A stretch of 64,000 bases of DNA from Stentor roeselii (taxonomy: Eukaryota > Ciliophora > Heterotrichea > Heterotrichida > Stentoridae): contig RSEH01000178.1 in NCBI GenBank assembly GCA_006503475.1, positions 1-64,000 on the forward strand, written 5' to 3'. Every line of letters starts with the position of its first letter. Position 1 is the stretch's first letter. A program made the translations under genes and the position numbers. This document shows positions 8,896 through 63,380 of this stretch, piece after piece. The notes under the pieces are model-generated. The model had not been told where the DNA came from, did no database searches, and was given only the letters and a program-made list of their open reading frames with translations.

Positions 8896-11490
8896 TTATT
8901 TGTATTTAAGTCTGTCGTAATCACGTCGAAGTTGTGACAACATCCGGTTTGTTATCTTGTAACTTTGAAGCTCAGTCAAGAAGCTTCTGTCAAAAATCGT
9001 CATGTGAGGTGAGCTTTGGATTCCAGTAAGCAAACACATGATTTCTTCATATTTCTTCCAGATAAGAAAACTTTTCAAACGACTTAAAATTGTAATGGCG
9101 ACTTGAAAAATGACTTTCCATCCACGCTGATTAGAAATTACGTAAATGAATAAGTCCCAGATACTTAACTGCAGGTCGAGATTTGAAAGGAGAAGAGCAC
9201 CGAATAAGGTTAGGAACCAAGGAGATGAAAAAGAACTCGAGGTTATTGTTTCTGATGAAAAAGTGTCGAATATGTCAGGAAGATGAAGGGCGATTAGCTT
9301 GTCAAGTGCGAAGAAAAGAAATTTTAGTTTTGGTAGTTCTTCTGAATATAAGTCAAACATCGAGTTGATTCTGATAAATTCATCCATCGCCCAGTAAGTT
9401 TTACTTTTTTCTTTAAAAACTATGAAAAAAGTACCTGCCAGGTAGTTCATTCCTTGACAGTACCCAACTTTCACATTACAAAACGCGTAGACCTTTAAAA
9501 TTTCTTTCACACTGTCAAGATCTACAAGGCCTTTATTATTATAAGACCGAAGTACGTCCATAGTGATAACATCTTCAAATTGTTTGATATTTTCACGATT
9601 TTCTTTCATATTTTTCACTAGTTTTGAGTAGTCTTTGTGCCTTCCACGACACAAGACCAAGTCCCATGCGACTTTTCGTGTTTTCAAGTTACGGTGAACG
9701 AGGAGTTCTTTTTCCAGGTACCAAGGTCGAAGTACGTGAAACCAAGTTTTACTTACAGTCAACAAACCTCGAATTTCACTTCTATTTAAATACTTAGCTG
9801 CGAGGCCTAAATACAAAAAAGAACCCCAACGGCCTCGAAGCTTTGAACCTTGTCTTGATGATTTACTTCTGGAGCTCTTTTCGAATTTGTAGTTACGGCT
9901 TAAGGAATGAAGCTCGATTATTATTGTTGAGAGCTTTGAAGGCTCTACACCTGCTTTCTTTGAACAGTCGTGAATTATTGATAGAGCTATTGACTGGTCT
10001 ACTTGGAAGTGAATCATGTAGAAGTTGAACTGAGATAATAACATCAAAGCTGAATTTTTTTCTGCTTGTTTTTCTTCGAATTTTCCAGGGTTGAATGATT
10101 TTATTTTCTGTTTTTTGAAGTTTTCGAGGTTTCTTTTGAAGATTTGCTTCTCGCAGTCTACTCTGTCGGAGATTGCTGTTTCGATTGTACGCTTCCAGAA
10201 GAAAGGGTTTTGGAAGATTGGGTGGATGCTTAGTGTTTTGAATAAATAAGTTTTGCCTTTTTCTGATATACTGAAAATATCATGAGAAATTAGAAGAATT
10301 TTAAAGAAAATCTGGAAATTGTTTGGATCTTCTGATTGCATCATTGATAGGACCTTGCTGAGTAATCGACTTAAGTCTTCGAGATTCTTTTCTTCTATGC
10401 AGGAGAAATGTTTGCGATTGTCGATTGCTTCGAAAAATGCCGGCCATGTGTTTAGGTTGCTTAGCAATTCGAGGAGATCATTTATTTCTCTTTCGCTGAC
10501 TAGAAATTTCGGGTTTCCTGAATGTTTGGAAGGGATTAGACTGTATATGACAGTTTTGATATGAGCCAAATAAGGTTCCATCGGTACATAAGCAACTTTA
10601 TTAGAAATCCATCCATCCTCACTTAAAAGTGGATCCTGTCCATTAACTTTCAATTCCATTTTCCACTTATCATAATCAATCCACTCCTCCCTCTGAACTT
10701 TCGGTAAATTCAAAAACCTTGTAACAAATCCTTTAACTTCATCAGCCGGATTGATAGCATCAGCAGTATCAAAAGAGTTAGAAAGACTAACCAAAAGATC
10801 ATTTCTGACACTTTTTTCCATTTTAAGGTGTTTTTGAAAGATTTTCTTGATAAACTGAACACGACTCTCCTCACTTTCCTTAAGAGACTCAATACAAAAG
10901 ACTCGATAATCATCACAGTCTCCCCAGGCCTGTTTTTCCTGTGCAAGTGATGAAAAATAGTCCTCAGAGGCTCGAAGTGCATGATTTCTCATTTCACTCG
11001 CATTAGTCTTCGCGAGTTCAAGTCGATCTTCATCATCTTCAATCAAAACAACTCTTTCTGCTTTTTCCGCTCGGACACTGGCCTGAAGGTAATTTTGTCT
11101 TTTTCGTTTCATGATTTCTCGAGTTTCTTCCAGTTGAAAGACTGAATTTTTTGTGCTTTTTATTGACTCGAAGATGCTACTGTTGAAGTTTTCTGTAAAA
11201 GTCGCCAGAGGGTCGAGTATCTGAGTTTGAATCGACCTGATTAAAGGTTACTGAGCTATTTCTAAGTGCTTCGCACTTTGAAGTTTGATGAAACCTGAAA
11301 GAGATGATAAGGATGAGGATAATGAACGGACTTGCTCTGAAGAGATCAAGTCGTATGTTAAGTCTGATAGGGTTACGGCCAGGTCTTCATTCATTCTTTT
11401 GTAGTTTTGGTAGAAGTTCATCAAGATCTTTAATGTTTCGCCTCCTTGGCATAAATAAGAATATGATGATTCCAGGCATTCTATTAGCAT
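8896..11490 (-). CDS. F-BAR-like and TBC-domain RabGAP (one 15-nt intron)
   Basis: Two open stretches in the same frame join across a 15-nt intron at 11237-11251, giving 859 residues. Residues 1 to about 250 are helical and charged (QNYKRMNEDL near the start, LDPLATFTENF, KRKRQNYLQA) and resemble an F-BAR membrane-bending domain. The C-terminal third is a TBC domain. ITMDVLR supplies the arginine finger (IxxDxxR) and YCQGMNYLAG the glutamine finger, so Rab GTPase-activating activity is likely. The combination suggests coupling of membrane curvature to Rab inactivation in trafficking. The stop lies only 5 nt from the next gene's start at 8890. The F-BAR call is weaker than the TBC call. Confidence 0.85.
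11237..11251 (-). other. 15-nt intron (F-BAR/TBC gene)
   Basis: On the minus strand it reads GTAACCTTTAATCAG. The TAA interrupts the frame in place. Removing it joins AQ to SIQTQILDPLATF and preserves the frame. Confidence 0.85.
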
Positions 11491-12770: not shown

Positions 12771-13064
12771 ATATATTTAATACTATTTAATTCACAGTAA
12801 ATCTTCTGCATCATTCCAAATTTCTTTATCTCTAAATTCCCAAATCATAAAAAATCCAAAAAAAATCTCTCAAGATTTTTTTTTTAAGTTTTTCTGAAAA
12901 TCCTTATTTTTTTGAAAAATCTTTCAAATTTCTCATTATCTTCTTGAAAGTTTTTCCAGACATTGAAAATTTACATATTTCCAAACGTTTCACATCAATT
13001 GAAAATCCTCTAAAAACAGCCTTTCTTCTAAACCTTTCAAAATAATCGAAATAATTAATTACAT

Positions 13065-13409
13065 TCAAAAACTTTGGAAAACTCGGTCATGGTCCGAGTC
13101 CGAGTCTTCTGCAGTACTCAAGGCACTTTCAATCATTCTGAACTCTTCATCAGAAACAATCGGGTTCTTGTTTTCTCGCCTGTTTAGGTAAGTAGAGAAA
13201 AGACCCGTCGAAAAAAGATCCTTGCCAATCGTGGGCATCTCGCCTTGGTTCAAAATCTGGCTTAGTTCAGAAATGCAGGAATCTTCGAGAAGGTCGCAAC
13301 TTTGAGATCTTGATAGTTCTGGACTTTCAGGGAATAAGAAGTGCGAGTAAAGCCTTTTTGGCTCTGGAGATAAGAGAGCTTTTGTTTTGCTTGATGGTAA
13401 TGACACCAT
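13065..13409 (-). CDS. Small unidentified protein
   Basis: A 114-residue Ser/Glu-rich protein, probably largely disordered, with an acidic tail (STAEDSDSDHDRVFQSF). The start is preceded by AATAA, as in neighbouring genes. No family recognised. Confidence 0.5.
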   Translation of the reverse strand: MVSLPSSKTKALLSPEPKRLYSHFLFPESPELSRSQSCDLLEDSCISELSQILNQGEMPTIGKDLFSTGLFSTYLNRRENKNPIVSDEEFRMIESALSTAEDSDSDHDRVFQSF

Positions 13410-16072: not shown

Positions 16073-16239
16073 TATTGATTTATTACTTGGGGTATGACAA
16101 TTAATATTTTCCTTTCTATTCAAAATCCATCCATATGCAAACCTTTCGAAAAACTCTGAAACCACTCAATAACTTCAAGAAACTCCCCATTCTTCCATCC
16201 AATCCACAAAATCCAAAATTTCCAAACCTTGAATGAAAA

Positions 16240-17343
16240 ATGACAGATTTCAAATTATTATTCCGTCTTTCCCCAGTTTCATTCAACTTATCATCAACCT
16301 TCACAAGCCAGTCCTACCACTGCTCCCCAGAGGCATCGATGAAAAACATGACGATTCAACAAACGCAAAAGCAGAACTACCGCAAATCAATAAGCCATCG
16401 TCGAAACTATTCCCTTGGCCAAGACAACATAACAACGCTTTACCAGAAGTCCTTAGAAGAGAACTTCAAGTTAAAAAAGCTGAAAACTTTAATCCAAGCT
16501 AGACTTCTCAACCTTTTTTCTTCAATGAATTCAAAAGCAACGAAAATCCAGAAAATCGTGAAAGGTTTTTTAGTCCGCAAGGGAAATTCAGAGCTTTTAA
16601 TTGAAAAACACAAGAAATACACATTTGGACTGATTGAAGACCTGAAAATCTTCACAGAAAAATGTTATTATTCAGGAAAGCGGCTTTTTAAAGCTGTAGT
16701 TAAAGTCCAAAGCGTTTTCAGAACCTGGAACTTCTTAAAACTCAACAAGGCCCAGTTGGAAAACATGAAAAAAGTTTTGAAAGATGTGAAAACCGTGATA
16801 AAGACCCTAATAAGTTCATATAAACTCTCAAAAGGCAAGAAATCCTTCATAAAACGAAAACTTTTTGAAATCCGCAAACGCTTAGCAATGCAAACTATAT
16901 CAAAGGCCTTATCAACCTACAAAAAATCACGTTTTAAAAGCAAGAAACACTCAAGAAAAATAAGTTTCGACAACTTATTATTAAACTTCGCTTCAAAGTT
17001 CCCCAATCCACACATGACAAGTCTTCACCAGCCCTCAAGTCCCGACAAAAGTGAATCTTCCGACGAAAGTTCTCTAGAAGCAACTCGATTTTATTCAAAA
17101 AAACAATCATTTGACCTTAGAAAATTCCGTCCTTCCCTTCTAGGCACTATTCCAGTGCTAATCGAGCAGAAAAGACACTCAATGATCTGGGTGGAAAGGT
17201 TCGACGAGGAGTCCAAGTCGCAGGTGATCGGTTTGAAAGAAGCAGAGTCAGGATCTCATTTAATTATCAGAAAAAAAACCTTAAATCGGCCGATTTCAGC
17301 AAGTCTTTCCAAACCCCGCACATCAATTTCAAGAGTTGTTTAA
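16240..17343 (+). CDS. IQ-motif protein
   Basis: A 367-residue, very basic protein. IQKIVKGFLVRKG (about 103-115) is a good IQ calmodulin-binding motif, and VQSVFRTWNFLK (about 150) is a second, weaker one. The remainder is Lys/Arg/Ser-rich, with no enzyme domain seen. Calmodulin or centrin binding is likely; heterotrich contractile systems use many centrins, but a link is inference. The next gene starts 21 nt after its stop on the same strand. Confidence 0.7.
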   Translation: MTDFKLLFRLSPVSFNLSSTFTSQSYHCSPEASMKNMTIQQTQKQNYRKSISHRRNYSLGQDNITTLYQKSLEENFKLKKLKTLIQARLLNLFSSMNSKATKIQKIVKGFLVRKGNSELLIEKHKKYTFGLIEDLKIFTEKCYYSGKRLFKAVVKVQSVFRTWNFLKLNKAQLENMKKVLKDVKTVIKTLISSYKLSKGKKSFIKRKLFEIRKRLAMQTISKALSTYKKSRFKSKKHSRKISFDNLLLNFASKFPNPHMTSLHQPSSPDKSESSDESSLEATRFYSKKQSFDLRKFRPSLLGTIPVLIEQKRHSMIWVERFDEESKSQVIGLKEAESGSHLIIRKKTLNRPISASLSKPRTSISRVV

Positions 17344-18756: not shown

Positions 18757-20015
18757 ATGTCTGAAAGAAAAAAATAGTACTAGTGGAACATTGGGAAGAA
18801 GAATTTCCTCCTGATTTGGATATTATAGATGCTAAAATTAGAAAGGTTCGTGATACGAAAAAGTTCATGATGAAGAGAATTAAAATATGCAGTGTGATTT
18901 ATGATTTTTCGGACAAAATGAAAGATTATTCAAACAAATTGAAGAAAACTATAGCCTTGCAGGAGATTTACCATTTTTTGATTCAGTATAGACAAGAATC
19001 CATTCCTTTTTCTGAACTCTTATTTGAAATGATTTGTAAGAACATTTTTCGACCTTTACAAATAAATCTCAATTCTGTACATCAAAGACCTCCTCATGAA
19101 AGTAATCAAGTGGATAGTTCATATAAAGATCCTTCATGGCCTCATCTAGAAGGAGTTTATCAAGTATTTGATAAATTTATCTCTATAAATTCAGAATATA
19201 CCTTAATTAATTCTTTTTTGACAGACTCTTTTAACTACGAATTTATTAACATGTTCAAAAGCGAAGATCCAAATGAAAGATGGCACTTATGGAATATCCT
19301 ATCAAATTACTATAAAAATTTTTCACTTCAAAAAAAATCAATAAGAGAAATAATTCGTGAATGTTTGAAAACAATTATAAAAAAAAATCTTAGATTCCCA
19401 GGTGCTACAGAAATTCTTTTTCATTATTCAACATTCATCCCTAAAGTTTTGGATTATTTAGGAGAAGAAAATGTGATTTTCTTTAAAACCATCATCATTC
19501 CGCTTTATTTTATAGAAACTTCTCATCTTCATCATAAAGCATTAAACTTTTGTTCGATTTTGTATGTAAAAAATGATCACTCTTTAGCTATTCCGCTTGT
19601 TGAGGGACTTTTAAGGAATTGGCCTTACGGAAATCCATTCAAAGAAGTTTGGTTTATTGCAGAGATTAATGATATTATTAGAGTGTGTCAACTTTCAGAA
19701 TTAGAATCTTTTGCTATGATACTTATGGAAACTATTATTAAATTCTTTTCTAGAGCTGAAATGCAGATTTCTGACCAGGCCATTGAATTATTAGAAAATG
19801 ATAGGTTTATAAGAATTTTAAGAGGTGTCAAAGGGGCGCGTTTACCTTTTATTCTTTTTGATAATCCTAATTATCAAAACTATCACTGGAGTGATGAAGT
19901 AATTGATATATTTAATAATTTGAAGAATCTTCTAAAAAAAATTGACCCTTTTGCTTTGGACCTTGTACTTCAAACTCCGAAATATTCAGGAAAGGTATTT
20001 GATCGGAAAGTTTAA
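18757..20015 (+). CDS. PP2A regulatory subunit B56-like, copy 1 (N-terminal frame break)
   Basis: A B56/B' family HEAT-like scaffold that directs protein phosphatase 2A to substrates. Family landmarks: RIKICSVIYDFSDKMKDYS, NIFRPLQIN, DPSWPHLEGVY, FKSEDPNERWHLW, HSLAIPLVEGLLRNWP. The frame with all homology is open from 18765 but has no early ATG. An ATG at 18757 starts MSERKK, matching the MSERKQ start of the copy at 49948, then meets a stop just after a run of seven A (18768-18774). One more A would join the frames. Either the run is miscounted in the assembly, or the gene has a real frameshift, or it initiates at a downstream Met. Confidence 0.8.
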
Positions 20016-20843: not shown

Positions 20844-22889
20844 TTAATCAACTTCTTCAACATTGGGTGCTCTTCCTGATCCTCCAGCTCCAGGTGGGGC
20901 TCCTCCACCAGGGAATCCTCCAGCTCCTCCAGGGAATCCTCCAGCTCCTCCAGGGAATCCTCCAGCTCCTCCAGGGAATCCGCCAGCTCCTCCAGGGAAT
21001 CCACCAGGCATGCCACCAGGCATTCCTCCAGGTGCACCTCCAGCAGCAGCATAAATTTTCTGCATAATCGGATTGACGACACTTTCAAGATCCTTCTGCT
21101 TGGCTTCATATTCCTCAGTAGTAGCATCATGATTAGACTCAAGCCATTTGGTGACTTCCTGAACCTTTCCTTCAATAGCTGATCTATCCTCAGCAGTGAC
21201 TTTATCTTTAATTTTCTCATCATTAAGAGTATTCTTCAAGTTATAAGCATAGCTTTCAAGTCCATTCTTAGCTTCAACCTTTTTCCTGACAGCTTCATCC
21301 TGTTGTTTATATCTTTCAGCTTCAGCAACCATTCTTTCAATATCATTCTTGCTGAGTCTTCCCTTATCATTAGTGATAGTGACTTGGCTGGTCTTTCCAG
21401 TTCCCTTGTCCTGAGCATTGACGTTCATAATACCATTGGCGTCAATGTCGAAAGTGACTTCAATTTGAGGGACTCCTCTGGGGGCAGGGGGGATTCCTTC
21501 AAGGTTGAACTTGCCGAGCATGTTGCAGTCTTTCGTCATTTGTCTTTCTCCTTCGAAGACTTGAATGCACACTCCTGGCTGGTTGTCTGAATATGTGGTG
21601 AAAACTTGAGCTTTCTTTGTGGGAATTGTTGAATTTCTTGGAATCAAAACTGTCATCACTCCTCCTGCTGTTTCTATTCCGAGAGATAATGGAGTCACGT
21701 CTAAGAGGAGAAGGTCTTTCACTTGGTTTGATGAGTCTCCGGATAGAATTGCACCTTGAACTGCTGCTCCGTAGGCTACGGCTTCGTCTGGGTTTATTGC
21801 TTTGCAGAGCTCTTTACCGTTGAAGAACTCTTGAAGGAGTTGCTGGACTTTAGGAATACGAGTGGATCCTCCAACAAGTACAACTTCATGAATCTGATTC
21901 TTAGCCAATCCTCCATCTCTCAAGACACGTTCAACTGGTTCAATGCATCCTCTGAAGTAATCCATATTAAGTTCCTCAAACTTAGCTCTAGTCATAGTAG
22001 TGAAATAATCCACACCATCAGCTAAAGTTTCAATTTCAATGCTAGCCTGAGTCGCAGACGAGAGTGATCTCTTAGCTTTTTCACAAGCAATCCTAAGTCT
22101 CTTCAACGCTCTATTATTCCCCTTGATATCAATTCCATTCTTTTTCTTAAAGTCAGCCGAGCAGAACTCGACCATTCTATTATCAAAGTCTTCTCCACCA
22201 AGATGGGTGTTACCAGCAGTGGCCTTGACTTCAAAGATTCCATCTTCAATAGTAAGCAACGAGACATCAAAAGTACCTCCACCAAGATCAAAGATAAGAA
22301 TATTCTGTTCTCCTGCATTTTTCTTGTCAAGTCCATAAGCAATGGCAGCTGCAGTAGGTTCATTAATGATTCTTTTCACGTCAAGTCCTGAAATGACTCC
22401 AGCGTCTTTAGTGGCTTGTCTTTGAGAGTCGTTGAAATAAGCAGGGACTGTGACCACTGCGGTTTTAATGGTTCTGCCAAGATAAGCTTCTGCGGTTTCC
22501 TTCATTTTGAGAAGGACCATTGCGGAGATTTCTTCTGCGTAGAACTTTTTCTCTTCGCCTTTGAAGATGACTACGATGTGAGGTCTGCTGTCGGCTCCTC
22601 GGACTACTCTGAAAGGCCAGAGCTTCATGTCGGCTTGGACAATTGGGTCTTCGAACTTGCGTCCAATTAGTCTTTTTGCGTCAAAGATTGTGTTTTCTGG
22701 GTTTCTTGCGACTTGGTTCTTCGCAGCGTCACCGATTAGACGCTCAGTGTCGGTGAAGGCGACATAGCTGGGAGTTGTTCTATTACCCTGGTCGTTGGCA
22801 ATGATTTCAACTCTATCGTTTTGCCACACTCCTACGCAACTGTAAGTTGTTCCTAAATCGATTCCGATGCAAGGTCCGTCTGCTGACAT
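20844..22889 (-). CDS. HSP70: Cytosolic heat-shock protein HSP70
   Basis: A 681-residue chaperone with all family signatures: GIDLGTTYS near the start, [12 protein letters not shown] and [12 protein letters not shown]. The substrate-binding domain and helical lid follow. The C-terminus has five GGFPGGA-type 7-residue repeats plus GGMPGGMP and ends in EEVD, the TPR co-chaperone docking motif of cytosolic HSP70. Heat-shock elements and a TATA box lie just upstream, so strong stress induction is expected. A divergent second copy lies at 45990-47867. Confidence 0.98.
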
Positions 22890-24693: not shown

Positions 24694-24983
24694 GTTATTA
24701 GTTGTAGATAATTTTAGAATGATTAATGATCTGAAACCTGCTGATTATTTAAAACCATCTAAGCATATAAAGTGGTTTCATGTTTGAATTTCCAGATCCA
24801 ATTGAACCCTAAAATCTTTATAATCCTCTAAAACCCTTTCTTCCCTAAAAAACCTAAAAAATACCCTCTCCTCAACCACCTCAACCCTTTCCTTCAACAT
24901 ACCCCTAACCCTCCTCATCAAACCGATAAATCCTCAGAAGATAAAAACCCTAATATCCAAACAATTCCTATTAATGGTTATAA

Positions 24984-25470
24984 ATGTCATTCCACAGTGA
25001 CTCAACTGAAAGTGGTGAAGACCTTCCCCGGAAGTGCCTAACTTATTCTATGCTTCTCGACCGTTCCGCAATTCCATGTTTTTGAAGGCTATTCTTCAGA
25101 CCTTCTTGAATCAGACTCAGGTTATTTCCTCCAATTTCCTGACTTTTCTGATCCAAGTTCAGAGCTGATAAGCTTTATTCCTGGTCTTTCTAGTGGAGTC
25201 GAGCTGGCTAGCATTAGGTCTTTTAGGTTTAAAAGGAATGTTTATGCGAAAGCAGTGGACAATTTGGTGAAACCGGCTCTTTTGGCCCTGATTAAAGCAG
25301 CTGAAGACTTTGGATGCGAGTTTTTGTTCATGGCGGTGCCTTTTGAACTGTGCAACTTTCGGAATATGCTGAAAATGCTTGCTTATGTCGGGTTTAAACA
25401 GGTTCCTCCTGATAAGCAAAGAGAAATTTGCAATGTTCGTGCTGTTCTTATGAGATATGAACTTGGATAG
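24984..25470 (+). CDS. OAZ: Ornithine decarboxylase antizyme, expressed by +1 ribosomal frameshift
   Basis: Antizyme binds ornithine decarboxylase, sends it to the proteasome and restrains polyamine uptake. A short first frame starts at ATG 24984 in TATAAATG and ends at TGA (25083-25085) after 33 codons. The main frame lies at +1 and runs to TAG at 25468. Its C-terminal half has the antizyme core: LVKPALLALIKAAEDFGCEF, then FRNMLKMLAYVGFKQVPP. The shift site reads TTT-TGA (25080-25085); tRNA-Phe can re-pair with TTT after slipping one base. A possible small stem (GAAGG 25084-25088 with CCTTC 25101-25105) follows at once. With the shift the product is 161 residues. Antizyme genes use this arrangement from yeast to humans, with polyamines promoting the shift. 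Confidence 0.93.
25080..25085 (+). promoter_or_regulatory. +1 programmed frameshift site TTT-TGA
   Basis: The last sense codon of frame one plus its stop. Skipping the T at 25083 continues as GAA GGC TAT TCT. Phe codon, slow TGA and exact re-pairing are the known ingredients of antizyme shifting. Confidence 0.85.
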
Positions 25471-25484
25471 AATAGTTAATAAGT

Positions 25485-26949
25485 ATGAGCTTGAGGAAGG
25501 TACTTATGAGGTGTCTTTATGATGATGACTTGGAAGGATTCACTCAGAATGTCGCTGGGGTTCAGATTGAACAGATCAGTCTTCTGCAGAATGTGAAAGG
25601 GACAAATATTTTGCATGATTTTGCAAATTGCTCAAGATCGACCTTGCCTTTTTTTATGAAATGTGTGAATTTCTTACCGACTGAACTGATTCGACAGATG
25701 CTAGATTCCAAGTCATCAGAAAAAGACAACCTGACTCCTCTCCAGCTCTCAGTAGTCTTCAACAAGCGGGTAGTGTTAAATAGTGGAGGGCTCTTGCGTT
25801 TTTAAACATAGACCAAGACCTTCAAGTGAAAGACGACCAAGGCAGGGCTCTTTCTCACTTAGCCGTAAGAAGTAACAACGTGATGATCCTTGCGAAGCTT
25901 TTCGAAAAAGGATGCAATATAAACGAGAAAGATTTCTTCGGGAACAGCCCTCTTCATGTAGCAATTCAAGAAAGGTATACAAGTGCCGCCCTTGCCTTGA
26001 TAGACTTGGGAGCCGAGATCAACAATCAAGACCAGAACATGAACAGTGCTCTTCATTTGGCAGTCATTCATGAAGACTACCGCGTCGTCAGAAGACTTTT
26101 AGCTTTCAACGCACGACAAGACTTGCAAAATGACGAAAAACTTCTCGCAAAAGACCTCGAAACAACAAAAGAAATAAAACAACTGGTATGATTAAATAGT
26201 TCGTTTCTGGACTTTTCTGTCAAAAAAACCAGTTCAAGAAAAGTTACTTGTTTCCTTGTTTACTTGTTTTTGCCTTTACTTTGAAATTTGTGATGATCTG
26301 GATTTTTAATGTCCAGTTGATTCAGGTTAATCCTTTTGTTTTGAAGTTTCCTGAATGGATTGTGATTTTGATGGTAACTTTTGTGTTTTTCACTAATTTG
26401 GTTGTGTTTTTTGTCAGTGCTTTTAAGGATCCTGGATTTGTTGAGAAAGGAAATGGGTTGGTTTCTGTGATTATTATTTAGGAACTACTTGTGAAGCATA
26501 AATCTGAATCTGTTTGTTTCTCTTGCAAGGTAGTGAAAAATACTGGAGTTTATCACTGCGTGATCTGCCAAAGATGCATAAAGGTACCCGTTATTCAGCA
26601 TTATGACCATCACTGCAAATGGTTAAACAACTGTGTAGGTGAAAATAACCTAAAGCCATTCACAGGTTTTTTAATAATTTCACTTGGAGACCTATTCATA
26701 GCTTTCCTAATGGGTCAGAACTTTCTAGAAACCTCTTCTGGGGAGATATCTTTAAACTCAATCTTTTTATTCATGATTCTCGCTCTCTGCGCAATGATGA
26801 TAGTCCTGATATCGCCAATCACCTTTCTTCAAGTAACTAACTCAATCAACGCGACCACCACATCAGACCGTTTCAGTAAAAAATCAGTCCAATCACTGAA
26901 CACTTCAGTTTTCCGTGAAAGTTTCATGAACGATAGCTTCGAGGACTAG
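25485..26949 (+). CDS. Ankyrin-repeat DHHC palmitoyltransferase (three tiny introns)
   Basis: Four open stretches join across introns of 14, 14 and 15 nt to give 473 residues. The N-terminal part has about five ankyrin repeats (LTPLQLSV, GRALSHLAVRSN, GNSPLHVAIQERY, NSALHLAVIHEDY). Two membrane segments follow (LFPCLLVFAFTLKFVMIW; IVILMVTFVFFTNLVVFF), then the Cys-rich catalytic domain CVICQRCIKVPVIQHYDHHC and WLNNCVGENN, then two more membrane segments. DHHC proteins S-acylate cytosolic Cys; ankyrin-DHHC enzymes such as yeast Akr1 and animal ZDHHC13/17 work at the Golgi, with the repeats recruiting substrates. The active motif is intact. It starts 14 nt after the antizyme stop. Confidence 0.9.
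25770..25783 (+). other. 14-nt intron (DHHC gene)
   Basis: GTAGTGTTAAATAG. A removal of 14 nt is needed to change frame correctly and gives exactly 33 residues between the TPLQL and ALSHL landmarks of adjacent ankyrin repeats. Confidence 0.75.
26186..26199 (+). other. 14-nt intron (DHHC gene)
   Basis: GTATGATTAAATAG. Its removal joins KEIKQL to FVSGLFCQK and restores the frame of the first membrane segment. Confidence 0.7.
26467..26481 (+). other. 15-nt intron (DHHC gene)
   Basis: GTGATTATTATTTAG, in frame, carrying its own TAG. It begins GTG, unlike the GTA of the other introns. A 21-nt alternative start at 26461 cannot be excluded. Confidence 0.65.
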
Positions 26950-30467: not shown

Positions 30468-31346
30468 CTACTCTTTTTTCTTCTTTCCTAAGACGAAACC
30501 CAATAGTAGTGCTAAAAAACAGACGAATTTGATAAAAAGTAAGGTTAAACCAAAAAATGCGAATTCCACGATATACAAATAATGATTGCCTAATAATGTA
30601 TAAGGAAACTGAGTATCAGGAAAACAAAGCTGGAAATTAATATTCGCCCATGTCAGAACTGAAGCATTTCCTTGGACAAGTCTTCCAAACAATGAAAAAC
30701 TATGAAATCCCTAATTTTCAAATACAAACAAAACACTTAAAAAGTCGATATCACCATTAACACAATGTCTTCTTCTATAAACTAGAAGTACTGGGCAAAT
30801 CAAGCCTCCCAGAATATGTTGAACCCAGAATAGTTCAAGTTCTCCAAAATAAGTGATGAGACCTGTCTCAGGGTAAACTAATGCTGTAAACCTACTTTAA
30901 AATTACGCTCCTGAACTCCAAACCATCACTGATAAGTACATCTTTAAACTAAATTTCGAAGGGCTAGATAACAGCAGATATCCCTGCATCAAACAACAGA
31001 GATGACAATGACTCAATGAAAAAATCAAGCGATGAGTGATAGATTTGTAAAAAATTTGCAAGAAAAAGACAGAAACTTGAATGATTCCTAAAATTTTTTC
31101 AATCAAATTTGGACTTTGACTTCCACTTTTCATCTTTTCAACATGCGATTTTGTTAAGATCTTATAAAGCGAAATGTGAAGAAGTGACTAAATTTTCATT
31201 ACCACTGAAAAGAAGACTGCTAGTCTGTAACTTATTGACATCTGCTCTAAACATGCTGGTCCTCCGTCAGCTAAGGTTTCTTTGCCTGGGGAATAAACAT
31301 TTCCAAGAAAGAGTTCGGAAAGACTCGATAGAAATGTTGATGCCAT
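30468..31346 (-). CDS. TMEM164-like multi-pass membrane protein (three 15-nt introns)
   Basis: Four open stretches join across introns at 31188-31202, 30892-30906 and 30711-30725 into 277 residues starting at ATG 31346 (MASTFLSSLSELFLGN). The order of motifs follows TMEM164: LSHCHLCCLMQGYLLLSSP (family NPCHxxTxxxxFLLACPP), then ALVYPETGLITYFGELE, FWVQHILGGLICPVLLVY, FHSFSLFGRLVQGN and NINFQLCFPD. Several hydrophobic segments and a KKKKE tail complete it. TMEM164 has been described as an acyltransferase making ether phospholipids; the conserved HC and QH residues fit, but activity here is inferred. Confidence 0.82.
30711..30725 (-). other. 15-nt intron (TMEM164-like gene)
   Basis: Minus-strand GTATTTGAAAATTAG, carrying an in-frame TAG. 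Removal joins DFLSVLF to GFHSFSL. Confidence 0.8.
30892..30906 (-). other. 15-nt intron (TMEM164-like gene)
   Basis: Minus-strand GTAATTTTAAAGTAG with an in-frame TAA. Removal joins MVWSSGA to FTALVYPE. Confidence 0.85.
31188..31202 (-). other. 15-nt intron (TMEM164-like gene)
   Basis: Minus-strand GTAATGAAAATTTAG with an in-frame TAG. Removal joins LAVFFSV to SLLHISL. Confidence 0.85.
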
Positions 31347-38225: not shown

Positions 38226-39494
38226 ATGGATCAAAAAAACCAAATTAGATTTTTTTTCCAAACAAAAAAGTCAATTGCTTCTGCTCCTGAAAGAATAGAA
38301 GCTAAGGTGCTAAAAGTTAAAAATAAGGAAAAGTTTTTAACCAAGAGAATCCAAATATGCAGCCAGATTTACGACTTTACTCAAGAATTGAAAAACTATT
38401 CAGAGAAGGCTAAGAGACTAAAAGCTTTGCAGGAGCTTAGACTGTTTTTAAATCATTACCCAATTAATTATCATTCAGATCATTGGCTAGTCTTTAAAAT
38501 GATTTGCAAGAATATTTTTCGGCCTTTACCACTCAACCAAAATCCAAGAAACGTAAGACCTCCTCATGAAGGGATTGAAGTGGACATTTTTCATGACCCT
38601 TCCTGGATTCATCTTAAAGGAGTTTATGAGATCTTTTTAGATTCATTTTATCAACTCGAAAAAATATTTCAGAAGGATAAACTAATAAAGACCTTTACAC
38701 AAGAACTTATCTATTTATTTAATAGTGAAAATGAAGAAGAAAGATTATATTTATGGAGAATTTTACAAACCTACTATGATTTTATGATAGGCAATAGGAA
38801 ATTAATAAGAGAAACAATCTATAATCTTTTTATAACGATTATAGAAAAAAAATTAACCTTCAATGGAATAAGTGAACTTCTTGTGAAATATTCGGCGATA
38901 ATCTCTGTGTTTTTAGTCCCATTACGAGAAGATCAGTTGCATTTTTTTCATAGAATTTTAATTCCGCTTCATTTTCTCGAGACTTCTCATCTTTTTCATA
39001 AACAACTTATTGTTTGCTCTGTGAGATATGTTGAAAAAAATCATTCTTTGGCAATACCACTTTTTGAAGCACTCTTAAAAAATTGGCCTTTCGGAAATGA
39101 CTATAAAGAACCTTGGTTCCTCGCTGAGATAAATGATGTGATTACTGTTTGTGAAATTTCAGAATTAGAATCTTTTATTCCCAAATTGACTGAAGATATT
39201 ATTCGATGCATTTCAAGATCTGAGTTGGAGACCTCTGAAAAAATTATTCATTTGATTGAAAGTGGTGGATTTTTTGGTATTATAAGAATTTTCAAACAGT
39301 TCACCTTTCCATTGATTTTTAAATCGAATAGTATTTTTACGAAATATCACTGGAGTAGTAAACTTATAGAAAATTATTATAGTTTTAGGGATTTCCTAAA
39401 AAACATCGACCAAAATGCATTTAATTTTCCAATCTCAAAAACACAGGGATTTCAATCAATTATATTTAGCATCGAAAAATTAAGATTGTATTAA
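38226..39494 (+). CDS. PP2A regulatory subunit B56-like, copy 2
   Basis: A 422-residue B56 protein with intact N-terminus: RIQICSQIYDFTQELKNYS, NIFRPLPLN, DPSWIHLKGVY, HFLETSHLFHKQLIVCSVRY, HSLAIPLFEALLKNWP. It is related but clearly divergent from the copies at 18757 and 49948, especially in the final 100 residues. Start in TATAAATG. Like other B56 subunits it should bind the PP2A core, but the short N- and C-terminal tails offer no targeting motif. Confidence 0.9.
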   Translation: MDQKNQIRFFFQTKKSIASAPERIEAKVLKVKNKEKFLTKRIQICSQIYDFTQELKNYSEKAKRLKALQELRLFLNHYPINYHSDHWLVFKMICKNIFRPLPLNQNPRNVRPPHEGIEVDIFHDPSWIHLKGVYEIFLDSFYQLEKIFQKDKLIKTFTQELIYLFNSENEEERLYLWRILQTYYDFMIGNRKLIRETIYNLFITIIEKKLTFNGISELLVKYSAIISVFLVPLREDQLHFFHRILIPLHFLETSHLFHKQLIVCSVRYVEKNHSLAIPLFEALLKNWPFGNDYKEPWFLAEINDVITVCEISELESFIPKLTEDIIRCISRSELETSEKIIHLIESGGFFGIIRIFKQFTFPLIFKSNSIFTKYHWSSKLIENYYSFRDFLKNIDQNAFNFPISKTQGFQSIIFSIEKLRLY

Positions 39495-43154: not shown

Positions 43155-44162
43155 TCAATGACTTCTCTTGAATATCACACAAATAAAATCCAAGTTCAAT
43201 TCCATAATTTCTTCATCAATCATATTTCCAATTTCCTTCAATGCAAGCTCAAAAATTTCTCCTTTTTTATCTTCATCTCTGTCTAAAGCAGTAAAAAGAG
43301 GATTTTTCATCATAACTCTCATCATATCAGTCATACTTGTTTTGAACTTTTCCTTATCTTGATCACTAAGAAATTCAGAATAATTTGGAAATGGAATTTT
43401 TCCGTATTTAGACTTGATTATTTCGATTTGATCTCCGAAAGGTTCAAGGATTTGATGAATCTCTTGTATATGGTAAGGATAAGAATGCCAGACATAGTTC
43501 TTGAATTCATTTTCAGTGATGATCTTCTTTTCTAGAAGTCTTTTAATTGATCCAAAAGTGTACCTTGCAACACTTGGGTCTTGGTCTAGTTTTTCTCGTG
43601 CATTTATGATCATTACAAATACTCCACCTATTGCAAGTTCGTTAATTCTTATTCTGAGGAGGTTGGTCAAATCTTTGAAGCTTTGCTTTTTAGCATTTTC
43701 GAAGACCCAGCCATATTCTTCGGACTCTCGAGGCTGCTTTTCGGATAAGTAGTGAAGTGCATATGAACTGAACCCCAAATGCACTGAACCTTCAGGAACA
43801 ATTTGATTAAAAAAACTTCTTCCAATCGTTGAGAAAAAGATGTTATCATGCTTCAAATAAGTCTCCTCACTTTCATTTATAGTATTAAAAACTACCTGCC
43901 AATTGTTTTCAGGTAAATCTGTGTGAAGAATCGAGACAGGGATCGAATGAGATTCTCTAAACAACTTTAAGACCTCAGCAAGAACTATCATTGAATTCCG
44001 ACCTTCAGAACATCCATAGTCAACGATGCTGATGAGTTCAGATGACAAGGATTCAACTGAGTTTAAGGATGAGAGGAGGTCTGGTACGAATTTCAATGAA
44101 ACCTGAAGCTGCCTTTGGGAGACCTTGTTGTAGCCATGAAGTCCTTTCGACTGGAAAGCCAT
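43155..44162 (-). CDS. SABATH-type SAM-dependent methyltransferase, copy 1
   Basis: A 335-residue protein with the SABATH pattern: VDYGCSEGRNSM (SAM-binding loop, family DLGCSSGPNT), HTDLPENNWQVVF (family DLPxNDFNxxF), FFNQIVPEGSVHLGFSSYALHYLSEKQP (family SVHFxHSSYSLHWLS) and a late VFVMIINARE strand. SABATH enzymes methylate carboxyl groups or ring nitrogens of small molecules and are best known from plants. Substrate is unknown. The copy at 55057-56064 has the same length and is very similar. Confidence 0.85.
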   Translation of the reverse strand: MAFQSKGLHGYNKVSQRQLQVSLKFVPDLLSSLNSVESLSSELISIVDYGCSEGRNSMIVLAEVLKLFRESHSIPVSILHTDLPENNWQVVFNTINESEETYLKHDNIFFSTIGRSFFNQIVPEGSVHLGFSSYALHYLSEKQPRESEEYGWVFENAKKQSFKDLTNLLRIRINELAIGGVFVMIINAREKLDQDPSVARYTFGSIKRLLEKKIITENEFKNYVWHSYPYHIQEIHQILEPFGDQIEIIKSKYGKIPFPNYSEFLSDQDKEKFKTSMTDMMRVMMKNPLFTALDRDEDKKGEIFELALKEIGNMIDEEIMELNLDFICVIFKRSH

Positions 44163-45989: not shown

Positions 45990-47867
45990 TCAATCTTCAA
46001 ATAATCCTTCATTCCTACTTGCAACATGACAACGATTCTGATTAACCAATTTAAAAACCTGCTGAATTTCATCATACCAGTCTTGATAAACCTGAGTATC
46101 CGCATCCAAATTATTCCCAAGCCACTCACAAGCCTCTTCAATTTTCTCTTCAACACTCTCAAACCCCGCCACATCAACATTTCCCATCTCTATCATAACC
46201 CTCAACTCATTTTTCAAATTAAAAATAAAACTTTCAAGTTGATTCCTTTTCTCACTTTTAATCCTCTCAACTTTTTCCATTTCTTTAAATTTTTCATTCT
46301 CCAAGGCAAAATTTTCAATATCCTGATTCGAAAGTCTTCCTTTTTTACAACAAATAGTAACCCCACTAGTCCTTCCACTTCCTTTATCCTTCGCAAAAAC
46401 CTCTAAAATTCCATCAACATCAATTTGAAAAGTGACTTCAATCTGAGGAACTCCCTTAGGAGCCAGTTCAATTCCATTCAACTGAAATTCTCCAAGCAAC
46501 TTGCAATCTTTAGTCATTTTCCCCTCACCTTCAAAGACCTTAATAATCACAGCAGGTTGATCATCAAGAAAAGTCGAAAAATTTTCCATTCTTTTGACAG
46601 GAATGCACATATTCTTGCTTATCAAAACAGTCATCACGCCTCCAGCGGTTTCGAACCCGAGTGAAAAAGGAGCCACATCAAGCAGAAGTATTTTTTCTAG
46701 AGTTTCATTCAATTTAATGGAAAGAATCCCGGCTTGAACTGCGGCGCCATAAGCGACGGCTTCGTCAGGGTTGATCGATTTGCAGAGTTCTTTTCCGTTG
46801 AAGAACTCTTGGATCAGTTGTTGAATCTTAGGAATGCGGGTCGACCCTCCAACAAGAACGATTTCAGAGATTTGGGACTTGGTTAAATGGGCTTCTTGAA
46901 GAACTTGGTTTAAGAGTGAAAGGGTTTTGAGAAAAAGGTCCATGTTTAGCTCTTCGAATTTTAATCGTGTAAGGGTTTTTGAGTAGTCAAGACCTGGGGT
47001 TATTTCTTCGATTTCTATTGTTGTTTGGGTGCAGGATGATAGAGATCTTTTTGATTTCTCGCATGATGTTTGTAACCTTTTTAAACTGCGGGGCATGGAT
47101 TTTAGGTTTATTCCTGTTTTTTGGTGGAAGTCGGAGAGACAGAAGTCTACTAGTCGGTTGTCGAAGTCGCTTCCTCCCAGGTGAGAGTCTCCTGCTATGG
47201 CTCGTACCTCGAATATGCCTTCTTCTATTGTGAGTAGAGAAATATCGCAAGTTCCACCACCCAGATCAAAAACAATAACATGTTTCTCTCCAAAGCTAAT
47301 TTTCTGAAGTCCATAAGTAATAGCAGCAGCAGTAGGTTCATTAATAAGTCTTTTAATCCTAATTCCAGCGATTTCGCCAGCATCTTTAGTAGCCTGTCTC
47401 TGCGAGTCATTAAAATAAGCCGGAATAGTAACAACAGCAGAATCAACAGTCCTTCCAAGGAACCCTTCCGCCGTTTCCTTCATTTTCGCCAAGACCATAG
47501 CAGAGATTTCTTCAGCAAAGAAAAACTTTTCCTCTCCTTTAAAAGAAACAACGATAAGAGGGCGGCTTTCAGGTCCTCTAATGACTCGAAAAGGCCAGAT
47601 TTTTATGTCTTCCTGAACAGAAAAGTCTTCAAATTTACGCCCGATGAGTCGTTTGACGTCGAAAATCGTGTTTTCTGGGTTTCTTGATGCTTGGTTCTTC
47701 GCTGCAGTGCCGATTAAGCGCTGAGTAGAGGTGAAGGCTACGCAACTTGGAGTTGTTCGGCTGCCATAGTCGTTTGGGATTATTTCGACTTGGTTATTAC
47801 GCCAAACTCCTATGCAACTGTAAGTTGTTCCTAAGTCGATACCGATACAAAGATTGTCTTCTGACAT
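45990..47867 (-). CDS. Divergent HSP70 paralogue without EEVD tail
   Basis: A 625-residue HSP70 with full ATPase and substrate-binding domains: [28 protein letters not shown] (TFDVS in the other copy), [12 protein letters not shown]. It lacks the Gly-rich repeats and the EEVD terminus and ends [13 protein letters not shown], so binding of Hop or CHIP-type co-chaperones is not expected. No signal or transit peptide is evident, so it is probably cytosolic. Only weak GAA motifs lie upstream, without a perfect heat-shock element. A constitutive or specialised chaperone is likely. Confidence 0.95.
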
Positions 47868-49947: not shown

Positions 49948-51216
49948 TTATTGATCATTAATCTTGTTTATATGAATCTCCTCAAAGTATTTTGGAGTTT
50001 GAATAACTAAGTCGTATGCATATGGATCTATTTCTTGTAGGAGTTTCGTTAAACCATTATACTTTTCAATAGTTTTACTAGTCCAGTAATAACTTTTCAA
50101 ATCACAATCTTCTGAAATAATCAATGGCAATTCCCTCATTTTTACAACTCTTAAAACGCCTAAAAGTCTATTTTTTTCCATCAATTTATCAGCTTGTTCA
50201 GAAACCTGCACATCAGATCTAGAGATACAAAGAGTAATATTTTCCCTCAGTATAAAAAAGAAAGATTCTAGTTCTGACAATCCACAAACATTAATAAAAT
50301 CATTGATTTCAGCAATAAACCAAGGTAATTTTAATCTATTTTCATAAGGCCAATGTTTTAAAAGTGCCTCAACAAGTGGAATAGCCAAAGAGTGATCTTT
50401 TCTCAGAAACATAATCGAACAAAAGGCTAGCGCTTTGTGATAAAGATAAGAAGTCTCGACAAGATGAAGTGGAATGATAATAGTTTGAAAGTAAATCACA
50501 TGTTCTTCTCTTAATGGTAGAGAAAAACCAGAAATTATTCTTGAAAGATGAAGAAGAAGTTCACTTGCACCAGAAAATCTTAAATTTTTTTCAATGATTA
50601 TTTTGAAACATTCACTTATTACTGTTCTTATTATTTTTCTTCTAGAAACAAATTTTAAATAATAATAAGTCAAACATATTTGTAAAAGTGATCTTTCAAC
50701 TAAATCTTCGCTTCGGAATAGGTGGATTAATTCTTGAGTAGAAGCATAGGTCATGAAAGGTTTAAGGAATTTTAGGCAACCATGTACCATCATTAAATTT
50801 ACAAAAAGCTGATAAGCGTCTTTTAAGTGAGGTAAAGTTGACTCTAAATGTTTCCCTTGGACTTTCAAAACTTGATTGGGAGGATTGAGATTCTCATGAA
50901 TTACATTGATTGGCAGGGGTCTGAAAATATTCTTAAAAATCATTTCAATTAAATTCTCAGCATGAGGTATATAATCTTTGTTGTATATTTCAAAAAAATA
51001 GCAAAGCTCTTCAAATGCTCTTGTTTTTTGTAGCTTGCCCGAAATGTCTTTTGTTTCATCTGAAAAGTCGTAAATAACACTGCATATTTGAATCCTCTTG
51101 GTAATGAACTTTACCTTATCTTTTACATTCTTCACTTTAGCTTCTATAAAGGTAGAACTGGGCAGGGCTTCATTTTTTGAATGCTTAGATATTCTTATTT
51201 GCTTTCTTTCAGACAT
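49948..51216 (-). CDS. PP2A regulatory subunit B56-like, copy 3
   Basis: A 422-residue B56 protein starting MSERKQIRISKHSKNE. Landmarks: RIQICSVIYDFSDETKDIS, NIFRPLPIN, FRSEDLVERSLLQ, SGFSLPLREEHVIYFQTII, HSLAIPLVEALLKHWP, FIAEINDFINVC. It is closest to copy 1 (18757), sharing the N-terminal MSERK and a C-terminal DLV-QTPKY segment. It should act as a PP2A targeting subunit. Confidence 0.92.
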   Translation of the reverse strand: MSERKQIRISKHSKNEALPSSTFIEAKVKNVKDKVKFITKRIQICSVIYDFSDETKDISGKLQKTRAFEELCYFFEIYNKDYIPHAENLIEMIFKNIFRPLPINVIHENLNPPNQVLKVQGKHLESTLPHLKDAYQLFVNLMMVHGCLKFLKPFMTYASTQELIHLFRSEDLVERSLLQICLTYYYLKFVSRRKIIRTVISECFKIIIEKNLRFSGASELLLHLSRIISGFSLPLREEHVIYFQTIIIPLHLVETSYLYHKALAFCSIMFLRKDHSLAIPLVEALLKHWPYENRLKLPWFIAEINDFINVCGLSELESFFFILRENITLCISRSDVQVSEQADKLMEKNRLLGVLRVVKMRELPLIISEDCDLKSYYWTSKTIEKYNGLTKLLQEIDPYAYDLVIQTPKYFEEIHINKINDQ

Positions 51217-51406: not shown

Positions 51407-53479
51407 TTAAACATCAAGTCGATAATACTTAGGGTCCGGTTTAAACTCCCCATTAAAATACCCAGATTTCGCAACAGCACAAATCAAGTTAATCCCAAGA
51501 TCGCCAACGAGCATAGCAGCTCCAGCAATAGAAGCAATAACCCCAGTGACTCCAACACTAGCCCTAATGGCAGTACTAGCGACTCCCCTCATAAAAAAAT
51601 ACCTTCCCGCATTAGTGACTCCAATTCCGAAAGCGACTCCAGCTCCAGCAAGTATTCCATTTCCAAGATTCAATAAATTACTTTTAACCTCATCAATATC
51701 AATCTTCAAAGCAAGATGTTGATTAATCAAAGCCTGATAATTCGGATAAATCGACAAATCTCCAGTGATCTGATATTGAACCAGCACTTCTTTTTCCTTA
51801 CAAGTGCTTAAATAATCAAAAAAAGCATAAAAGTCCAAAAGTCTTTCTTCATCGACGCTACTCGAGTTGAGGACCTTTTTAAGTCCTTTTAGCAATTTCG
51901 AGTTTTTCACTGAAATTTCACCGATATTGGAACCGAGTAGTGTATGACAAAAATTGACGAATTTTGATAAAGAGGCCAACATTTGGTCTGATGGCTCGAT
52001 TTGTACTTTGAAGTTTTGGGTGTCTGTTACGAGTTTTAAGTATTTTTTTAATAGGATTCCTTTTATGTCGATCAGGTCTTTTATCTCTGATGAGTCGCTT
52101 GAAAAGGAGTTTAAGTCAATAGTTTTCATTAGAAGTTGGAAAATATTAGGAAGCTTTAAGACGTAGTTTTCTAGAGATTCTTTTATTTCAGGTGAAAGGT
52201 TGGATTTTTTGCAATTTTTTAGGTACTTTTGAAGATTTTTGAACATTCGGATTGAAGGGAATCTTTCTGTTATTTTTTTCTTGGTTCGCATGCACTCGTT
52301 TATGAAAAGTTTTAACTTTAGGTCGATTGTTATTGTTTTGATTTTGAAGAATGGATCTGATTCTATTCGGCCGAAATTTGGGTTGAGGTAGACGATGAGG
52401 TCGATGTATTTGTTGTTGTGAGAAGCATATTCTGTCCAAAAGCCATTAACACAAATGCTTTCCAGTCTAAAAAACTGATGGTTCAAGTTAAATTCCTCAG
52501 GAATCGGATCAGGAAAGATAACATTTTCTCTGATATTTTTAGTACTAATAACTAAAGCTTTTCCATGGATAACTTTTTTAACATTTTCATGAATCCTCAC
52601 AACAGGTTGATTTCCCGATACCTGAAAATAAATCTTTTTCTTATTATCAGAAGGTAAGACATAAATAATCGGCGCATTAAGTTCAAGTTCCTCAGAAATC
52701 AAGTTCAAATCCTTATCAACACACAAAATATAATCCGAAACCAGTTTTTTTCCACTAATTTCAGAGGTAAAAGTGATATTTCCCCATCTATTCAAATTAT
52801 TCCTCATACTAATCAGTTTATTTTCCACTCTTTTCGAAAGTCTTTCAACAAAAACATCACAATTTACTGAATCCATATCATTTAAACTTCTCAAAAACTC
52901 ATCCTTATTCCTTTCAACCATTTCAAAACCATTTCCATTAATTTCTGGTTTATCAAAAGGAAAAACCTTGATTTTCCTTTCTATTATTCCTTCAATAAAG
53001 AAATTATAACCATTCGGGAAGACCTCTTCAAAGTACTCAGAAATATTTGAACAAAATCCCGCAGAAGACTTAGAAACGATTAAAGCAAGTCCTGCAGCAT
53101 GTTCACTCTCAACATTCAAGATTTCAATCACATCTTGAACAAAATTTAAAAAATTCTCCCCGTTGTTCATGCAGATATAAGACTCATCAACCAACAAAAA
53201 CAATCGAAAGGTCTCAAAATTCTGAATTTCGCTTAAAATGTTGAGAATCACTGAAAAGTTGCTCTCATCGCCTCGAGTGTCGCTAAGCCCTGGAAGGTCG
53301 CAGAAGTTGTTGAAGTAATGAGACCGTCGGACTGAATGAAAAGACTCAGAATGACTGATATTGAATTTTAATCCGGATTTTTCTATGCGAAGATTTTTAC
53401 CTGATATAAAGTTGTAGAAGGAAGTTTTTCCTGAATGCTTTGGGCCTAGGATTAGGTTTATATGATGAGATCCTTCCAT
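51407..53479 (-). CDS. P-loop GTPase-like protein with Gly-rich hydrophobic C-terminus, copy 1
   Basis: A 690-residue protein. Walker A is GPKHSGKTS (12-20) and a G3-type DLPG lies at 61-64 (FCDLPGLSDTRG), so nucleotide binding is likely. A clear N/TKxD base-recognition motif is missing; LIVSKSSAG sits in its place. The middle is a long region of unknown fold containing RLESICVNGFWTEYASHNNK, conserved in the paralogue. The C-terminus (about 615-675) is a glycine-zipper-like hydrophobic stretch (GAGVAFGIGVTNAGRYFF; GVIASIAGAAMLVGDLGINL) that could insert into a membrane. It superficially resembles AIG1/GIMAP or IRG GTPases but I cannot place it. Start in TATAAATG. Confidence 0.8.
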   Translation of the reverse strand: MEGSHHINLILGPKHSGKTSFYNFISGKNLRIEKSGLKFNISHSESFHSVRRSHYFNNFCDLPGLSDTRGDESNFSVILNILSEIQNFETFRLFLLVDESYICMNNGENFLNFVQDVIEILNVESEHAAGLALIVSKSSAGFCSNISEYFEEVFPNGYNFFIEGIIERKIKVFPFDKPEINGNGFEMVERNKDEFLRSLNDMDSVNCDVFVERLSKRVENKLISMRNNLNRWGNITFTSEISGKKLVSDYILCVDKDLNLISEELELNAPIIYVLPSDNKKKIYFQVSGNQPVVRIHENVKKVIHGKALVISTKNIRENVIFPDPIPEEFNLNHQFFRLESICVNGFWTEYASHNNKYIDLIVYLNPNFGRIESDPFFKIKTITIDLKLKLFINECMRTKKKITERFPSIRMFKNLQKYLKNCKKSNLSPEIKESLENYVLKLPNIFQLLMKTIDLNSFSSDSSEIKDLIDIKGILLKKYLKLVTDTQNFKVQIEPSDQMLASLSKFVNFCHTLLGSNIGEISVKNSKLLKGLKKVLNSSSVDEERLLDFYAFFDYLSTCKEKEVLVQYQITGDLSIYPNYQALINQHLALKIDIDEVKSNLLNLGNGILAGAGVAFGIGVTNAGRYFFMRGVASTAIRASVGVTGVIASIAGAAMLVGDLGINLICAVAKSGYFNGEFKPDPKYYRLDV

Positions 53480-55056: not shown

Positions 55057-56064
55057 ATGGCTTTTCAGTCAAAAGGACTTTATGGCTACAACAGAGTATC
55101 TCAGAGCCAACTTCAAGTTGCATTAAAATTTGTGCCAGATATAGTCTCATCTTTAAACTCAGTAGAATCTTTATCACCAGAACTGATCAGAATAGTAGAC
55201 TATGGATGTTCTGAAGGTAGGAATTCAATGATTACTTTTGCTGAGGTTTTTAAGCTGTTTAGAGAATCTCATTCGATCCCTATCTCGATTCTTCACACGG
55301 ATTTACCTGAAAACAACTGGCAAGCAGTTAACAATGCTATAAATCAGGGTGAGGAGACCTACTTACAGTATCAGAATATCTTTTATTCAACACTTGGCAG
55401 AAGTTTTTTTAATCAAGTTGTTCCTGAAGGTTCAGTGCATTTGGGGTTCACTTCATATGCACTTCACTACTTATCTGAGAAGCAGCCTCGAGAGCCAGGA
55501 GAATTCGGGTGGGTCTTTGAAAATGGCAGAAAGCAAGGCTTCAAAGATTTAACCAACTTACTAAAAATTAGAATCAACGAACTAGCAATAGGAGGAGTGT
55601 TTGTTATGATCATCAATGCACGGGAAAATTTAAACCAAGATCCAAGCTTGGGAAGGTACAGTTTCGAATCTATAAAAAGACTTCTTGACAGGAACATAAT
55701 CACTGAAAACGAATTCAAACACTATGTCTGGCATTCTTATCCTTACCATATACAAGAGATTCATCAATTACTTGAAAAGTTCAGTGATCAAATTGAAATA
55801 ATTAAGGCTGAATACGGAAAAATCCCTTTTCCATATTATTCTGACTTTCTTCTTGATCAAGACAAGGAAAAGTTCAAAACAAGTATGAACGATATGTTGA
55901 GAGTAATGATGAAAAATCCACTTTTTACTGCCTTAGACCGAGATGAAGAGAAAAAAGAAGATATCATGGAGATCGCTTTGAAGGAAGTCGGATCCATGAT
56001 TGATGAGCAAATATTTGAATTGCACCAGGACTATATTTGTGTGATCTTTAAAAGAACTCATTGA
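55057..56064 (+). CDS. SABATH-type SAM-dependent methyltransferase, copy 2
   Basis: 335 residues, colinear with the copy at 43155-44162 and identical over long runs (GCSEGRNSM, HTDLPENNW, KDLTNLL, INELAIGGVFVMIINARE, YVWHSYPYHIQEIHQ). All SABATH landmarks are intact, so both copies are probably functional. It is followed convergently by the TMUB-like gene, whereas copy 1 is followed at lower coordinates by the TMUB-like pseudogene on the same strand. Start in TATAAATG. Confidence 0.87.
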   Translation: MAFQSKGLYGYNRVSQSQLQVALKFVPDIVSSLNSVESLSPELIRIVDYGCSEGRNSMITFAEVFKLFRESHSIPISILHTDLPENNWQAVNNAINQGEETYLQYQNIFYSTLGRSFFNQVVPEGSVHLGFTSYALHYLSEKQPREPGEFGWVFENGRKQGFKDLTNLLKIRINELAIGGVFVMIINARENLNQDPSLGRYSFESIKRLLDRNIITENEFKHYVWHSYPYHIQEIHQLLEKFSDQIEIIKAEYGKIPFPYYSDFLLDQDKEKFKTSMNDMLRVMMKNPLFTALDRDEEKKEDIMEIALKEVGSMIDEQIFELHQDYICVIFKRTH

Positions 56065-63271: not shown

Positions 63272-63380
63272 TTTTAATACATCAAACAAGAAATCCAAAC
63301 TTTAATCATAAAACATTGAAAAATTACCAAAGCCTAAAAAATTTCTTCAAATTAAAATTTTCTTTTCAGACAATAATAAA

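Follow-up and report, generated by a model that had tools for sequence, protein, structure and literature searches.

From yeast to mammals, antizyme frameshifting serves as a feedback switch for polyamines. A locus at positions 24984–25470 (plus strand) of a 64-kb stretch of Stentor roeselii DNA, the whole of which was analysed and is referred to below as the window, raises the question of whether a ciliate also makes its antizyme by shifting frame. The answer is probably yes: with a probability of roughly 0.8, the gene encodes a ciliate ornithine decarboxylase antizyme made by a +1 shift at UUU-UGA. Of the readings of this DNA, an antizyme that shifts by +1 at TTT-TGA has the best support, because a match to the antizyme profile, a two-ORF layout, the lack of an ATG ahead of the conserved core and the lack of a fitting intron of 14–16 nt all come together at this locus. 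It is a known mechanism in an informative host and not a new mechanism.

The gene consists of two overlapping reading frames. ORF1 (24984–25085, plus strand) has 33 codons and a TGA, translates as MSFHSDSTESGEDLPRKCLTYSMLLDRSAIPCF and ends with TGT TTT TGA. A TAA (24981–24983) lies immediately 5' of its ATG, a further in-frame ATG is found at 25050, and a short upstream ORF (24780–24812, plus strand), which encodes MFEFPDPIEP followed by a stop, lies 5' of ORF1. From 24900 to 25470 only two stops interrupt the +1 frame, a TAA at 25039 and a TAG at 25468; it is open from 25042 to the TAG (25468–25470). Its post-shift portion, ORF2 (25084–25470, plus strand), comprises 128 codons and the TAG, and a one-base slip at the TGA would yield a fused product of 161 residues. 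The original prediction, a 33-codon first frame ending in TGA with the antizyme core in the +1 frame, was exact in coordinates and in frames, and a short stop-terminated ORF1 followed by a core in the +1 frame is the architecture characteristic of antizyme genes. Three other routes to translation of ORF2 were rejected: an upstream start in the +1 frame because the approximately 200 open bases 5' of 25039 carry no ATG, stop readthrough because frame 0 runs into the next TGA already at 25107, and an internal start because the earliest Met of ORF2 is residue 83 of 128, within the conserved core.

The two frames meet at the proposed shift site, TTT TGA (25080–25085, plus strand). This is a shift-prone codon in front of UGA, and tRNA-Phe could re-pair exactly, as had been suggested, with the overlapping TTT (25081–25083), which leaves GAA (25084) as the next codon. 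Among 13,779 sense codons 3.6% are TTT; to find a codon that re-pairs perfectly in +1 at the very end of ORF1 is for that reason a mild surprise. TGA acts as a stop here, as was assumed at the outset: it ends nine of the 37 ORFs of at least 150 aa called mechanically from an ATG, the remainder ending in TAA (23, one of which, at 28516, falls inside an inferred intron) or TAG (five). The site had also been described as different from the common one, and it does differ from UCC-UGA, the majority antizyme shift site in the available text of PMC5009743. UUU-UGA is itself already known, being present in all Agaricomycete antizymes analysed in the accessible part of PMC4505036.

Codon usage, modelled on 35 ORFs of the window, changes its frame preference from 0 to +1, with the best-scoring switch points at ORF1 codons 26–33. 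ORF2 scores 34.9 bits in the +1 frame (−6.4 and 3.1 in the other two), and ORF1 scores 5.5 bits in frame 0, the best of its three frames (−1.5 and 0.8 in the others). In the calibration, in-frame stretches of 33 codons had a median of 7.6 bits and a 25th percentile of 5.3, and off-frame stretches had 95th percentiles of 4.9 and 7.4; ORF1 by itself is therefore moderately supported.

The shift site is also a T5 homopolymer (25079–25083), and removing one T gives a single open frame. The true genome could thus have one T fewer, and the antizyme would then be read without a frameshift, as is stated for Tetrahymena in the available portion of PMC5009743. We consider such an indel error improbable, since it would have to hit the antizyme shift position and, at the same time, create a perfect re-pairing site. 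The 35 ORFs (41,442 bases) read on without an indel through all 284 of their A/T runs that are exactly five long, a comparison weakened because these ORFs were picked for openness. Gene modelling with introns restricted to 14–16 nt places a +1 frameshift in the antizyme gene, and, counting further against an indel, no other complete gene model with a score above 4 used a frameshift under the stricter frameshift penalty. The other frameshift models then score 0, 0 and 4 or leave the window end; the only one above 4 (63381–63967) is open to the window end and represents an edge effect. The laxer penalty adds several: two are 5' extensions of intact ORFs (16233–17343 and 18757–20015), one lies at the window edge (63229–63967), one is on the minus strand (12904–13409, score 16), and four more score at most 8.

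An intron of unusual length could also remove the TGA and shift the frame. All GT..AG pairs of 10–60 nt and pairs of 14–16-nt introns were tried, and eight GT..AG segments (10–58 nt) would join the frames of ORF1 and ORF2. Candidates of 22 nt (25078–25099) and 25 nt (25063–25087) keep the frame open, and a gene model allowing introns of 12–40 nt chose the 25-nt candidate over a frameshift. Splicing of this kind is nevertheless very unlikely, given the introns that the window uses. In genes that have clear domains or score well as coding, the required introns are 14 nt (at 25770 and 26186) or 15 nt (at 26467 and 28506) long, another 15-nt intron is needed by a minus-strand gene (8896–11490), and two further 15-nt introns belong to a weaker minus-strand model (30468–31346). 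In the part of PMC9505925 that was available, annotated introns of Stentor coeruleus, which uses the standard code, are 15 nt (8,173 of 8,806) or 16 nt (633 of 8,806) long; the window resembles that genome in its standard stops and tiny introns, as would suit a heterotrich ciliate. No GT..AG intron of 14–16 nt, single or paired, joins the frames of ORF1 and ORF2. Moreover, the A+T content of the two candidates is 60–64%, compared with 67–87% in the seven inferred introns. At the level of sequence, then, the locus carries two overlapping frames, a re-pairing site, a profile match and no intron of the sizes typical of the window.

The two apparent 14-nt introns (25770–25783, GTAGTGTTAAATAG, and 26186–26199, GTATGATTAAATAG; plus strand) lie in an ankyrin-DHHC gene (25485–26949). 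Excision of the first yields, by hand count, an exact 33-residue ankyrin repeat, and both domains of the spliced product score. Their length falls below the 15–16 nt range of S. coeruleus in the available text of PMC9505925. The window has 11 GTA..TAG segments of 14 nt, compared with 27 that are 15 nt and 24 that are 16 nt long; this lack of enrichment speaks against introns of that size.

The identity of ORF2 is suggested by a profile. The original prediction expected a match of the +1-frame product to Pfam ODC_AZ (PF02100), and one is found with a significant E-value of 6.4e-5, but at 23.3 bits it falls 0.9 below the curated cut-off of 24.2. The match (25249–25464, plus strand) aligns ORF2 residues 56–127 with profile positions 36–114 of 114, and ODC_AZ is the sole Pfam family found for ORF2. 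The fused product scores 22.5 bits (E 1.1e-4), and a 63-residue fragment of human OAZ1, used as a positive control, gives 6.6e-15. None of seven shuffled copies of ORF2 matched any Pfam family at E-values up to 10.

Pairwise comparisons with human OAZ1 are not significant: BLASTP gives an E-value of 0.13, 357 of 5000 shuffles align equally well with the 63-aa fragment, and 327, 1671, 171 and 37 of 2000 shuffles do so with the 129-aa core in four settings. The family call rests for this reason on the profile and the gene architecture. An antisense frame, P0004 (25162–25503, minus strand), outscored ORF2 against the OAZ1 core under each of these settings (Z 3.4 to 5.3) and came first (50) in a Smith–Waterman comparison of OAZ1 with 510 open segments of the window. 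Second place went to an unrelated segment at 8243 (47), which shows that chance alone yields such scores in 510 trials. P0004, which has no match to any Pfam family at E-values up to 10, was treated as a chance match.

Taken at face value, the sub-threshold profile score, the insignificant pairwise similarity and the higher Smith–Waterman score of the antisense frame are what one would expect if the profile match were itself due to chance, the downstream frame were not an antizyme and the two frames were unrelated. This account is nonetheless highly implausible: the E-value is already corrected for the size of Pfam, the shuffled copies gave no match, and the expected antizyme architecture played no part in the profile search.

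In a MAFFT alignment, the putative antizyme ORF2 runs collinearly with OAZ1 of human and rat across the whole domain, at 17–21% identity. The alignment has 19 columns common to all three rows, including GF, V, P and, at the end, A..M.Y, and its register is that of the profile match, provided that there is no gap between. The accessible text of PMC4595762 names 13 residues through which OAZ1 contacts ornithine decarboxylase; in ORF2 three of them are identical (K153, L187 and Y216) and six are similar in our judgement, whereas K178, I197, H202 and E219 are not conserved. AlphaFold models from the single sequence are of low confidence (mean pLDDT of 40.2 for ORF2 and 46.5 for its last 93 residues). 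Among Protein Data Bank sequences, ORF2 and the fused product each retrieved only the unrelated, designed-looking THR2 (E 0.3 and 0.92). In collections containing few eukaryotes, no relative of ORF2 was confirmed among four pattern matches in viral contigs or 69 in genome contigs, nor among 71 matches in viral contigs to a pattern from the ORF2/OAZ1 alignment.

Some antizyme mRNAs, though not all, carry a stimulatory structure 3' of the shift site. A short GAAGG/CCTTC stem (25084–25105, plus strand) had been proposed just downstream, and the complementary segments do exist (GAAGG 25084–25088, CCTTC 25101–25105). In the predicted fold, however, UGAAG and CUUCA are the partners, and the stem region is indistinguishable from chance, being no more stable than its shuffles (z −0.46; 64 of 200 equally stable). 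A more stable hairpin (25105–25157, plus strand), which starts 19 nt 3' of the TGA, is a weak candidate stimulator. The fold of 25086–25160 has a z of −2.27 (three of 200 shuffles as stable), and the 54-nt segment at 25104 ranks within the most stable 1.3% of 4,406 coding segments. Another segment of the same gene, at 25164, folds more stably, and no stimulator is claimed for that reason.

Expression of the gene can be pictured as follows. Ribosomes would initiate at 24984, arrive at UUU-UGA after 33 codons and then either stop or slip by +1. Frameshifting presumably takes place at UUU-UGA itself: while UGA awaits the release factor, peptidyl-tRNA-Phe would shift from UUU to the overlapping UUU, and translation would resume at GAA (25084) to give the 161-residue antizyme. 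If the gene behaves like others of its family, a rise in polyamines would promote slipping, and polyamines may control the shift in S. roeselii; the antizyme would attach to ornithine decarboxylase and bring polyamine levels down.

A 2007 survey reportedly covered nearly 300 antizymes. No description of a heterotrich antizyme was found in the accessible open-licence literature, and an earlier notice may exist in that survey or in subscription journals. The shift site has a counterpart in fungi. Agaricomycete (mushroom) antizyme mRNAs also have two overlapping ORFs and a +1 shift at UUU-UGA, but their shift has stimulators, a conserved nascent peptide and 5' elements, according to the available sections of PMC4505036, and the present host is a ciliate. 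Mammalian OAZ1 resembles the S. roeselii gene in its short ORF1 ending in UGA and its ODC_AZ core in the +1 frame, and ORF2 can be aligned with it throughout the core. It differs in having UCC-UGA and a pseudoknot 3 nt 3' of the site (PMC5009743, in the text available), while the S. roeselii gene shares 17–21% identity and offers only a weak hairpin candidate.

Among ciliates, Euplotes likewise slips by +1 at the codon before a stop, with 54 genes carrying TTT-TAR in the accessible part of PMC4759687. There, however, slipping is genome-wide, occurs at TAA and TAG and is argued to be non-regulatory (PMC10235951, as far as its text was available), whereas here it would concern one gene and a TGA. 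The antizyme of Tetrahymena, also a ciliate, is stated to need no frameshift in the consulted portion of PMC5009743, which describes it as a case "where UGA is reassigned". This reason looks wrong, because UGA is the sole functional stop of Tetrahymena in the available text of PMC10942620; even so, it may be true that frameshifting is absent. In the heterotrich Blepharisma UGA codes for tryptophan (PMC10942620), and an antizyme shift site there should be of another kind.

As the Tetrahymena antizyme is stated to need no frameshift (PMC5009743, in the same portion), the S. roeselii gene suggests that one branch of the ciliates retained the frameshift and another lost it. If it was kept in a ciliate that uses UGA as a stop, this would place the antizyme frameshift in the ciliate ancestor. 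Its loss and any link to stop-codon reassignment would then become testable by comparing heterotrichs with other ciliates, and a standard-code ciliate with a frameshifting antizyme bears on the timing of the loss. A more far-reaching version is a long shot: that heterotrichs kept the ancestral antizyme frameshift and the Tetrahymena line lost it, and that a bare UUU-UGA suffices without strong 3' structure through the same tendency to slip before a stop that is seen genome-wide in Euplotes.

Apart from the antizyme gene, the window encodes Hsp70 (681 aa), a PP2A B56 subunit, an IBR/RING protein and a GH47 mannosidase, which mark it as eukaryotic, and several of its genes occur in similar copies. 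There are three B56-type PP2A regulatory subunit genes, at 18867–20015 (plus strand; confirmed by Pfam), 38226–39494 (plus) and 49948–51216 (minus), the last two judged by eye. Three further families form pairs in which the second copy was judged by eye: Hsp70 (20844–22889 and 45990–47867, both minus; the first confirmed by Pfam), SAM-dependent carboxyl methyltransferases (43155–44162, minus, which matches Pfam Methyltransf_7, and 55057–56064, plus), and GTP-binding-like proteins (51407–53479, without a Pfam match at an E-value of 1e-4, and 57392–59452, both minus).
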